Source of the DNA: Methanolinea sp.
GTDB lineage: Archaea; Halobacteriota; Methanomicrobia; Methanomicrobiales; Methanospirillaceae
Length of the DNA stretch: 64,000 nucleotides
Assembly: GCA_024518585.1 (NCBI GenBank)
Contig: JANIHI010000001.1
Span: forward strand, 1 to 64,000
Direction: 5' to 3'
Part shown: positions 10,834-45,428 of the stretch, one piece after another
Layout: each line of letters begins with the position of its first letter
Numbering within the stretch: position 1 is the stretch's first letter
Translations under genes and position numbers: made by a program
The notes under the pieces: generated by a model
Seen by the model: only the letters and a program-made list of their open reading frames with translations
Told to the model about the DNA's origin: nothing
Databases searched by the model: none

Positions 10834-10909
10834 CCGTATTTTCTCCCGGATGACGTGCACGGGGGAACTTTTTGGCCCTGCACGTCCCGGAGAAAAACGC
10901 GAACGCAAA

Positions 10910-10920: not shown

Positions 10921-10939
10921 GCTTTCGTCGTTTCAGGTG

Positions 10940-11027
10940 GTAGTGTAAGGATCTTACTGTAAAAACGAAACTCCGATCCTACACAGTCACTGTATACTCC
11001 CTATAGGAAAAACCAACCGAATTATAT
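10940..11027. repeat. Dispersed repeat A, copy 1
   Basis: This 88-nt element is about 87 percent identical by eye to 12369-12457. Conserved words are AAGGATCTTACTGTAAAAAC, the perfect inverted repeat ACAGTCACTGT, and AAAAACCAACCG followed by ATTATAT. GGATC and GATCC can pair across the first half. No reading frame is preserved between the copies. Confidence 0.8.
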
Positions 11028-11115
11028 CCATCAGCTTAAGCACTATTTCCAGTGGAACTTTCAGACATTAATCCCTCAAAACAAGATCTTCGGCAGTCAT
11101 TGTGAACAGTCACTG

Positions 11116-11190
11116 AACCGCCGCGGGGGCGCCCTTTTGGGGGGCGGCGGGTCCATCCTTATCAGGGGGTGAGGGGACGAGGCAGCCCCC
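11116..11190. repeat. Dispersed repeat B, copy 1
   Basis: A GC-rich palindromic head (AACCGCCGCGGGGGCGCCC pairing with GGGGGGCGGCGG) is followed by GGTCCATCCTTATC and GGGGGTGAGGGGACGAGGCA. The last 48 bases differ from copy 2 (12569-12641) at one position. It is a strongly structured non-coding element. Confidence 0.8.
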
Positions 11191-11232
11191 ACTCTCCCCC
11201 TCTCCAGCCTCCATCCATACAGTTATCCCTGT

Positions 11233-12231
11233 ATGTCACACAGATACTCCTCCATGAAACAGCCAAACAACCTCCAGGTTGCAGTCTTCCTCGTCCTGTT
11301 TGCAATCGGTCTCTTTGCGTCCTACTCCCTCTATACCGCGACCGGAGAGGCAGCATTCCTCGTCCTTGCCCTGGTCGCACTCCTCGTCGCCCTCTTCCTG
11401 TCAGCTGCTATCCAGCTCGCAAACCAGTGGGAGAAGGCAGTTGTCCTCCACCTCGGTACATACAAGGGACTCTTTGGCCCCGGGATCTTCACGATTGTTC
11501 CCCTCATCGAGACAGTAGCCTACTGGATTGACACGCGGATCATCACGACCTCGTTCACCGCCGAAAAGACCCTCACGAAGGACACGGTGCCAGTCGACGT
11601 CGAAGCTGTCCTCTTCTGGAAGGTCGTTGACCCTGAACGGGCAGCCCTCCTCGTCGAGGACTACAGGGCGGCCGTAAGCTGGGCGGCCCAGACAGCACTC
11701 CGCGAGGTGATCGGGAGGTCCCTCCTTGCCGAGATGCTCGAGGGAAGGGAGAAACTCGACCTCGAACTCCAGAGGATCATCGAGGAGAGGGCGGAACAGT
11801 GGGGCATCCACGTCTCATCCGTCGAGATCCGAGACGTCCTCATCCCGGCAGAGCTCCAGGACGCGATGTCCATGCAGGCCCAGGCCGAGAGGGAACGGCA
11901 GGCCCGCGTCATCCTCGGGGACTCGGAGAGGCAGGTCGCCGAGAAATTCGAGGAGGCTGCCCGCACCTACCAGAACAACCCCACGGCCCTCCACCTCCGG
12001 GCAATGAACATGCTGTACGAGGGCCTCAAAGAGAAGGCGACTCTCGTCATCGTCCCCTCGACCGTCCTTGACACGATGACACTCGGGGACACATCCGGCG
12101 TCATCGCCCTGGCACGGACCTTCCCCGGACAGGAAGCAGCACCATCCCCCGGCGAGGGGGCCACCCCTAAGAAGACCCAGAATAAACCGGCTTCTCCCCC
12201 CGAATCGGGCCCGCGAGGCGGTGCACTCTAG
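11233..12231 (+). CDS. Slipin/stomatin-like SPFH (band 7) protein
   Basis: A 332-residue membrane-anchored SPFH protein. Two N-terminal hydrophobic segments (about residues 14-32 and 38-56) form a membrane hairpin. The SPFH domain follows (NQWEKAVVLHLGTYKGLFGPG, then DTRIITTSFTAEKTLTKDTV and VEAVLFWKVVDPERAAL). A helical region (DAMSMQAQAERERQARVILG) should mediate oligomerisation, and the tail is Pro/Gly rich. Family members scaffold membrane microdomains and regulate proteases. The usual NfeD partner gene is absent. The start may be 11233 or ATG 11254; neither has a good ribosome-binding site. It is flanked on both sides by repeats A and B. Confidence 0.9.
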   Translation: MSHRYSSMKQPNNLQVAVFLVLFAIGLFASYSLYTATGEAAFLVLALVALLVALFLSAAIQLANQWEKAVVLHLGTYKGLFGPGIFTIVPLIETVAYWIDTRIITTSFTAEKTLTKDTVPVDVEAVLFWKVVDPERAALLVEDYRAAVSWAAQTALREVIGRSLLAEMLEGREKLDLELQRIIEERAEQWGIHVSSVEIRDVLIPAELQDAMSMQAQAERERQARVILGDSERQVAEKFEEAARTYQNNPTALHLRAMNMLYEGLKEKATLVIVPSTVLDTMTLGDTSGVIALARTFPGQEAAPSPGEGATPKKTQNKPASPPESGPRGGAL

Positions 12232-12330
12232 GGCAAAAGGGGTGGGAAGCACGGTGCAGGTCGCCCCGGTGGGGTGTTTCTCCCCCACCTTCGGATGTGA
12301 TGCACGGTGATAATCTTTTTTAAAAAAGCC

Positions 12331-12498
12331 CTCTTCGTCACTTCACATGGGTTTGTTGTACGAATGGGGTAGCGTTAAGGATCTTACTGTAAAAACGAAA
12401 CTTCGATCCGACACAGTCACTGTCCACTCCCGATGGGAAAAACCAACCGGATTATATTTCCCTCTTCATCATTTCAAATGGGTAAGTCGTATGAATGA
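12331..12498. repeat. Repeat C pair bracketing repeat A copy 2
   Basis: CTCTTCGTCACTTCACATGG (12331-12350, extending to GAATG near 12366) recurs as CTCTTCATCATTTCAAATGG (12462-12481, extending to GAATG near 12495). Repeat A copy 2 (12369-12457) sits between them. A degenerate C-like stretch (TTTCGTCGTTTCAGGTGG, about 10923-10940) precedes repeat A copy 1, so C and A form a composite unit. Confidence 0.7.
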
Positions 12499-12568
12499 GT
12501 ACTAGCCTCTCACCCGATAGAGCTGGTTGATTCAAAAAAATGCCGACTTAATACGAAATGAATGGTGA

Positions 12569-12681
12569 ATCCGCCGCCGGGACGCCCTGTCGGGGGCGGC
12601 GGGTCCATCCTTATCCGGGGGTGAGGGGACGAGGCAGCCCCACTTTTGGTTTTCATCCACCCACTCAAAATAGCGAAGAGC
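12569..12681. repeat. Dispersed repeat B, copy 2 with tail
   Basis: The structured head (CCGCCGCCGGGACGCCC and GGGGGCGGCGG) and GTCCATCCTTATC plus GGGGGTGAGGGGACGAGGCA match copy 1 almost exactly. A further tail (CCACTCAAAATAGCGAAGAG, 12661-12680) is shared with copy 3 at 45285-45307 but missing from copy 1. Confidence 0.8.
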
Positions 12682-12690
12682 AAAAAAAAA
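12682..12690 (-). terminator. T9 terminator for the gene at 12719
   Basis: Nine consecutive A on the plus strand give a T9 tract 29 bases past the stop of the minus-strand gene. Confidence 0.5.
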
Positions 12691-45082: not shown

Positions 45083-45192
45083 ACAAATTTTTGGTTGTGT
45101 CACACGATCGGGTACGCTCTCACCAGGACAACAGAGAGTCTGAGGTATCCAATCTGCCAGGTATTTCGGTCACCAGAAAAGTGAGCCAGTTA

Positions 45193-45308
45193 AACCGCCG
45201 CGGGGGCGCCCCGTCGGGGGGCAGCGGACGTATCCTCGAGGGGGGTGCGGGGGCGAGGCAGCCCCCCTCTTTTCGTTCCTATCCCCCCGCTCAAAATAGA
45301 GAAGAGCC
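45193..45308. repeat. Dispersed repeat B, copy 3
   Basis: AACCGCCGCGGGGGCGCCC, then GGGGGGCAGCGG, TATCCTCGAG, GGGGTGCGGGGGCGAGGCAG and a tail CCGCTCAAAATAGAGAAGAG (45288-45307). Head, body and tail have the same order as copy 2 (12569-12681), with more sequence divergence. It lies between the ABC ATPase gene and tRNA-Lys, followed by T6 (45309-45314). Confidence 0.72.
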
Positions 45309-45354: not shown

Positions 45355-45428
45355 CGGGCCTGAAGGGATTTGAACCCTTGACCTACGGATTAAGAGTCCG
45401 TCGCTCTTCCGAACTAAGCTACAAGCCC
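45355..45428 (-). tRNA. tRNA-Lys (anticodon CUU)
   Basis: A 74-nt cloverleaf on the minus strand. The acceptor stem GGGCTTG pairs with CAGGCCC (one G-T pair), discriminator G. The anticodon stem ACGGA/TCCGT encloses the loop CTCTTAA, giving anticodon CTT for lysine. The T arm is AGGG-TTCAAAT-CCCT. No intron is present in the anticodon loop and CCA is not encoded. A TATA element (ATATATAAA) lies at 45441-45449. Confidence 0.95.

Follow-up and report, generated by a model that had tools for sequence, protein, structure and literature searches.

Why is a single gene flanked on both sides by similar intergenic repeats? We analyzed the first 64,000 nucleotides of a contig from Methanolinea sp. (GenBank assembly GCA_024518585.1, contig JANIHI010000001.1; hereafter "the window"). 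The window includes a gene for slipin, an SPFH-domain protein (11233–12231, + strand; Band_7 PF01145, E = 7e-35), and a first-pass annotation had noticed repeats on either side of it. These were read as a duplicated cassette, a non-autonomous mobile unit, or a pair of regulatory RNA loci. We conclude that they are the worn remains of small mobile elements that landed by insertion, and not a special system for controlling slipin. More precisely, we consider it very probable that slipin is flanked by two degenerate MITE insertions that are chimeric, with the end of an IS and half of a MITE joined at a hairpin, and that any effect on the gene would be incidental.

Repeats on both sides of slipin

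We confirmed that the repeats known as A and B are present on both sides of slipin, with similarity far above chance. The copies of repeat A (10939–11027 and 12368–12457) are 90% identical over 90 nt (BLASTN within the window, E = 2e-29), and the ungapped core is 91% identical over 82 nt. The copies of repeat B (11114–11189 and 12566–12641) are 91% identical over 77 nt (E = 6e-24), with 40 of 41 positions identical after the hairpin. A third repeat, C, was said to precede each copy of A. This is true downstream of slipin (12329–12366), but upstream there is just a 20-nt remnant (10921–10940). The order C-A-B is the same on both sides, as reported, with an additional C between A and B on the downstream side (12460–12497; 82% identical to the outer C over 38 nt). 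The repeats are also spread more widely than had been implied: the upstream unit matches 42 places in the genome.

A MITE with ISL3-type ends

Repeats B and C belong to the same element. B is the right half and C is the left end of a ~221-bp ISL3-type MITE, which we call type I. Reading copies together with their flanks gave its TIRs, which are about 24 bp long (CCCTCTTCGTCATTTCAAGTGGGT and ACCCACTCAAAATAGCGAAGAGCC). The type I MITE is 221 bp, is multi-copy, and has no transposase ORF. The full MITE has 43 matches in its own genome, of which about 15–17 are full length; two are 100% identical, and a third is listed as 100% after rounding. A degenerate pattern for the TIRs matches the genome 55 times, as compared to once for a reversed-pattern control. 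Six copies (four in this genome and two in a sister genome, G010) have perfect 8-bp TSDs: CTAAATAT, GAAATTCA, AAAATAAA, TATTTTTA, a T-run, and TTCAATCT. Across 18 copies of the MITE, the mean TSD score was 5.3 out of 8, versus 4.0 for shuffled flanks, and none of 2,000 shuffles scored as high.

The near-identical copies imply recent activity, despite our finding no ISL3 transposase (PF01610) in the 96.5%-complete assembly. The sister genome G010 does contain a fragment of an ISL3 transposase (PF01610, E = 3e-34; L190), and this fragment terminates in ACTTACCCACTTAAAATGACGAAGAGGG, which is the reverse complement of the left end of G010's own MITE (L032). Another genome, G023, has a complete ISL3 element (L053) whose TIRs are of the same type and whose TSD is 8 bp (TCCAGATT). 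An ISL3-family transposase probably mobilized the type I MITE in trans. Judged by their ends, the units are non-autonomous ISL3 derivatives. We did not find a convincing TSD at either of the two copies that flank slipin. (The upstream copy is missing its right TIR; the downstream composite has both ends, and an A-run is its sole possible TSD.)

Archaeal MITEs have been described as short elements that lack ORFs, have TIRs that match an autonomous IS, sometimes have direct repeats, and are often present in more than 10 copies; beyond their borders, they show little likeness to the IS (Kamoun et al. 2013, PMC3852290). The type I unit fits this description, but it contains a hairpin that is common to unrelated IS families, and it also forms chimeras with another IS's left end. 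As in ISL3-family elements, the TIRs are of the GGCTCTTCG... type and the TSD is 8 bp, and relatives have a matching DDE_Tnp_ISL3 element. In contrast to those elements, the units here lack a transposase; they also have a hairpin that we did not see in the two ISL3 elements we read, of which one was complete and the other partial.

Repeat A is the end of an IS256-family element

Repeat A comes from an IS256-family (Mutator-like) IS, of which it is the transposase-distal end; contig C24 carries one copy of this IS. In that element, A and the hairpin are followed by a Transposase_mut reading frame and then by a related inverted end (CGATAGTGTAAGGA..CTGTAAA), and CGTTTTA repeats flank the whole. 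The reading frame adjoins the A end and has a strong match to PF00872 (E = 2e-56), which places the element in the IS256 family. (This transposase, at G000:C24:444-1632 in L002, is split into two overlapping frames and looks inactivated or frameshifted.) Two other genomes, G011 and G008, have the parts of the IS256 element in the same order. In this lineage, the hairpin and the TIR lie in a non-coding tail of ~200 nt. The hairpin is missing from IS256 homologues with about 50–57% protein identity, which stop ~60 nt past the gene, so the tail looks to have been acquired, although loss in the homologues is an alternative.

Of the 42 matches to the upstream unit, about thirty are copies of B that lack A. 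The others include A together with B on contigs C18, C1, and C22; A with the hairpin on C24; and two further places on C14 that hold partial A-bearing units, of which one is the unit 3' of slipin. (A dispersed repeat, ACCACCCATGACCGCCGGGCGGTCGAGCA...AAGCATGAAAATGGCGAAGCCATTTTCAT, adjoins several elements; it is at L002:40-180 and in the flanks of L021 and L011.)

Close relatives have empty sites

We compared the slipin locus to that of the closest relatives by slipin identity, G010 and G003 (88–89%). In both, the arrangement of TYW2, slipin, and DUF5814 is conserved in order and orientation, the spacers are short, and neither element is present. Therefore, both of the units that flank slipin are insertions. 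The copy number, the TIRs, the 8-bp TSDs, the matching end of the sister genome's ISL3 transposase fragment, and these empty sites all favor the non-autonomous mobile unit among the original proposals.

The sequence CCTCCATCCATACRGTTATCC, immediately 5' of slipin, is kept in both relatives. In the window, this ancestral sequence (CCTCCATCCATACAGTTATCC; L176 and L177 in the element-free relatives) occupies 11200–11232 (+ strand), and it is the probable promoter of slipin. The upstream insertion abuts it and leaves it intact. In another genome, G004, an unrelated hairpin-bearing unit is downstream of slipin. (Within the window, a long inverted repeat at 10839–10896, just past TYW2, reads TTTTCTCCCGGATGACGTGCA ... 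TGCACGTCCCGGAGAAAA and is not obvious in the relatives' spacers. It could be a terminator or another small element.)

The first-pass annotation also suggested that slipin could be lost by recombination between the flanking direct repeats. This is possible in principle, and we did not observe any deletion of this type. Two genomes of the same genus, G006 (76% complete) and G007 (99% complete), have no match to slipin at the cut-off that we used. The exact hairpin is absent from G007, so these repeats do not account for the lack of slipin there.

Chimeric elements that switch ancestry at a hairpin

Several of the elements are chimeras, and the ancestry of their halves switches at the hairpin. 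The element upstream of slipin (all on the + strand) begins with a decayed left TIR of the MITE (10921–10940; GCTTTCGTCGTTTCAGGTGG, as compared to CTCTTCGTCATTTCAGGTGGG for the left TIR). This is followed by module A (10939–11117), which is 98.9% identical over 175 nt to the IS256 end on contig C24 (L002) and just 90% identical to the downstream A. Next come the shared G+C hairpin, which is the breakpoint of the chimera (11118–11150), and the second hairpin of the MITE's right half (11151–11193). This right half matches the downstream copy at 40 of 41 positions, and every other copy is less alike, which fits local conversion or copying between the two.

The downstream composite (also on the + strand) has an outer left TIR with sub-terminal MITE sequence (12329–12366), the first half of module A (12368–12457), and then, nested after A, a full-length type I MITE (12460–12681) that is 84% identical to positions 1–220 of the 221-nt consensus. 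Matches to the TIR patterns delimit its left TIR (12460–12484) and right TIR (12659–12680), with its hairpin at 12571–12602.

A-bearing chimeras (type III) are found at six places in this genome. At another six, the MITE's right half is joined to the end of a third type of IS, which we call IS-II. One of these is in the window at 45088–45306 (+ strand), with an IS-II-type left end, the hairpin, and the right half of the MITE. (It is ~50 bp from a tRNA gene at 45355–45428 on the minus strand.) A complete copy of IS-II, flanked by AAAAATTT, is in L120, and its transposase is weakly Mutator-like (E = 0.008; L219). Also, an element in G004 (L041) combines a left end that is IS1595-like with a right end of the ISL3 type; we assigned the GGGTATAGTG ends to IS1595 tentatively, by resemblance and not by a profile.

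Did each class of chimera arise once? Within a class, the similarity among right halves does not exceed the random level (0.74 for type II, 0.69 for type III, and 0.79 for random), so the chimeras probably formed repeatedly. A caveat is that right halves of just ~75 nt give this comparison low power. Gene conversion of the right halves is an alternative and predicts the same pattern. Repeated recombination at the hairpin is the simplest reading.

Or the composite of A and B could transpose as one mobile unit whose left end is of the IS256 type and whose right end is of the ISL3 type. Several copies do combine the same left end with the MITE's right half (the six A-bearing chimeras, and the six of IS-II with ISL3). 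But we saw no TSD around any of the IS-II chimeras or type III copies that we read, and the left halves cluster by class while the right halves do not. Movement as one unit would also need two unrelated transposases to cooperate. We consider this explanation unlikely.

A proposed order of events

If the flanking units are chimeric insertions joined at the hairpin, then their history might be as follows. The starting point would be the type I element, a non-autonomous unit of ~221 bp with ISL3-type ends and a central G+C hairpin. An IS256-family element, which carries the same hairpin at its transposase-distal end, would insert into a MITE or just ahead of it, with both in the same orientation. 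Homologous recombination between the two direct copies of the hairpin would then delete the intervening DNA and leave the IS end, the hairpin, and the right half of the MITE. This would yield type III, that is, the transposase-distal end of the IS256 element with its hairpin, joined there to the right half of the MITE (the A and B of the first-pass annotation). Downstream of slipin, the A segment would additionally have received a type I MITE, and the lost right part of A would be due to a second deletion, between two copies of B. We infer this order of events, the loss of DNA by homologous recombination, and the incidental nature of any effect on slipin. We did not see an intermediate with an intact IS256 element beside an intact MITE.

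Other explanations for the paired repeats

We also considered whether the repeats might be structured RNAs (a small RNA or a 3' or 5' regulatory element) that control slipin. They contain two strong hairpins, and the upstream copy adjoins the start region of slipin. The first hairpin is nearly invariant across copies and is therefore uninformative about pairing. The second hairpin has more paired changes than expected (30 double changes versus 10 in shuffles, with a maximum of 20), which is partly a difference between clades. Such covariation is confined to the family's second hairpin, and the copies in the window fold no better than shuffled sequences do (z = -0.03 and 0.22). Furthermore, the unit recurs at numerous loci that are unrelated, and it is missing from the slipin locus of close relatives. 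A scan of Rfam with gathering and permissive thresholds found nothing for the repeats, just a tRNA and a chance match to U6atac. Overall, control of slipin by paired RNAs seems very unlikely.

A local duplication of one intergenic cassette around slipin is similarly improbable. It would explain why the order is the same on both sides and why the right halves of these two copies are so similar to each other alone (40/41). But the two A halves are 10% divergent, with the upstream one far more similar to the copy on C24, and the downstream unit has an extra full MITE. A and B are separable modules that occur across the genome, and just 2 of the ~40 places flank slipin.

Finally, REP/BIME-type repeats, which are moved by RAYT (Y1 tyrosine) transposases, are also dispersed, high-copy intergenic G+C hairpins that often come in pairs, but this reading is largely refuted and is the least credible of all: we found no RAYT gene, as the Y1_Tnp domain is absent from this genome and from all 25 genomes of the family that we searched (control genomes were positive), and the units here are bounded by long TIRs, with 8-bp TSDs in the family.

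A hairpin shared by unrelated transposons

The ~33-bp G+C hairpin inside the MITE is also present in IS256-type elements, in IS1595-like elements, and in a third type of IS. The exact pattern for the hairpin matched 21 of 49 genomes from the same archaeal family and none of 32 genomes from five other families in the order; control patterns had no matches. In a scan of a collection of ~85,000 species, the matches listed were from Methanoregula, Methanolinea, and related archaea, and the sole outlier among them was one low-complexity contig from Rubrivirga. We found no earlier description of the hairpin in the part of the literature that we covered.

To group the flanks of the hairpin, we used stricter clustering and patterns for the ends, since single-linkage clustering merged unlike families. 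(A few of the left ends were assigned with permissive patterns.) We discarded the classes with an ISL3 end on one side only at ~38 nt, and the mixtures with GTAGAAA, as they probably reflect spurious hits on other G+C repeats of Methanoregula. A blind search for TIRs and TSDs around all of the hairpins was weak, since the majority of copies are degenerate; the top score among real pairings was equalled by one control. A different G+C hairpin (CCCCGCCTCAGGGCCCCTCCGGGGCACGGCGGGG; L062, L061, L070, and others) often lies ~40 nt ahead of this one in Methanoregula, where there are also some ~470-bp units with TGCTCTGTAGAAA ends and 8-bp repeats (L122 and L156).

More speculatively, the hairpin might be a cassette, apparently confined to this family, that was taken up by unrelated transposons (ISL3-type MITEs, IS256, IS1595-like MITEs, and the third type of IS). 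It could serve as a joint for exchanging ends, which would make new chimeric non-autonomous elements, and it may itself be mobile. We view this broader proposal as tentative.

Implications

What appeared to be a regulatory repeat around a gene becomes a history of insertions, with empty sites in relatives. Automated RNA finders could misread the hairpin as a conserved RNA, and it is specific enough to mark mobile DNA in the genomes of Methanoregula and Methanolinea. These archaea also provide a natural case of how non-autonomous elements may gain foreign ends, with a hairpin that is common to unrelated transposons as the recombination joint.
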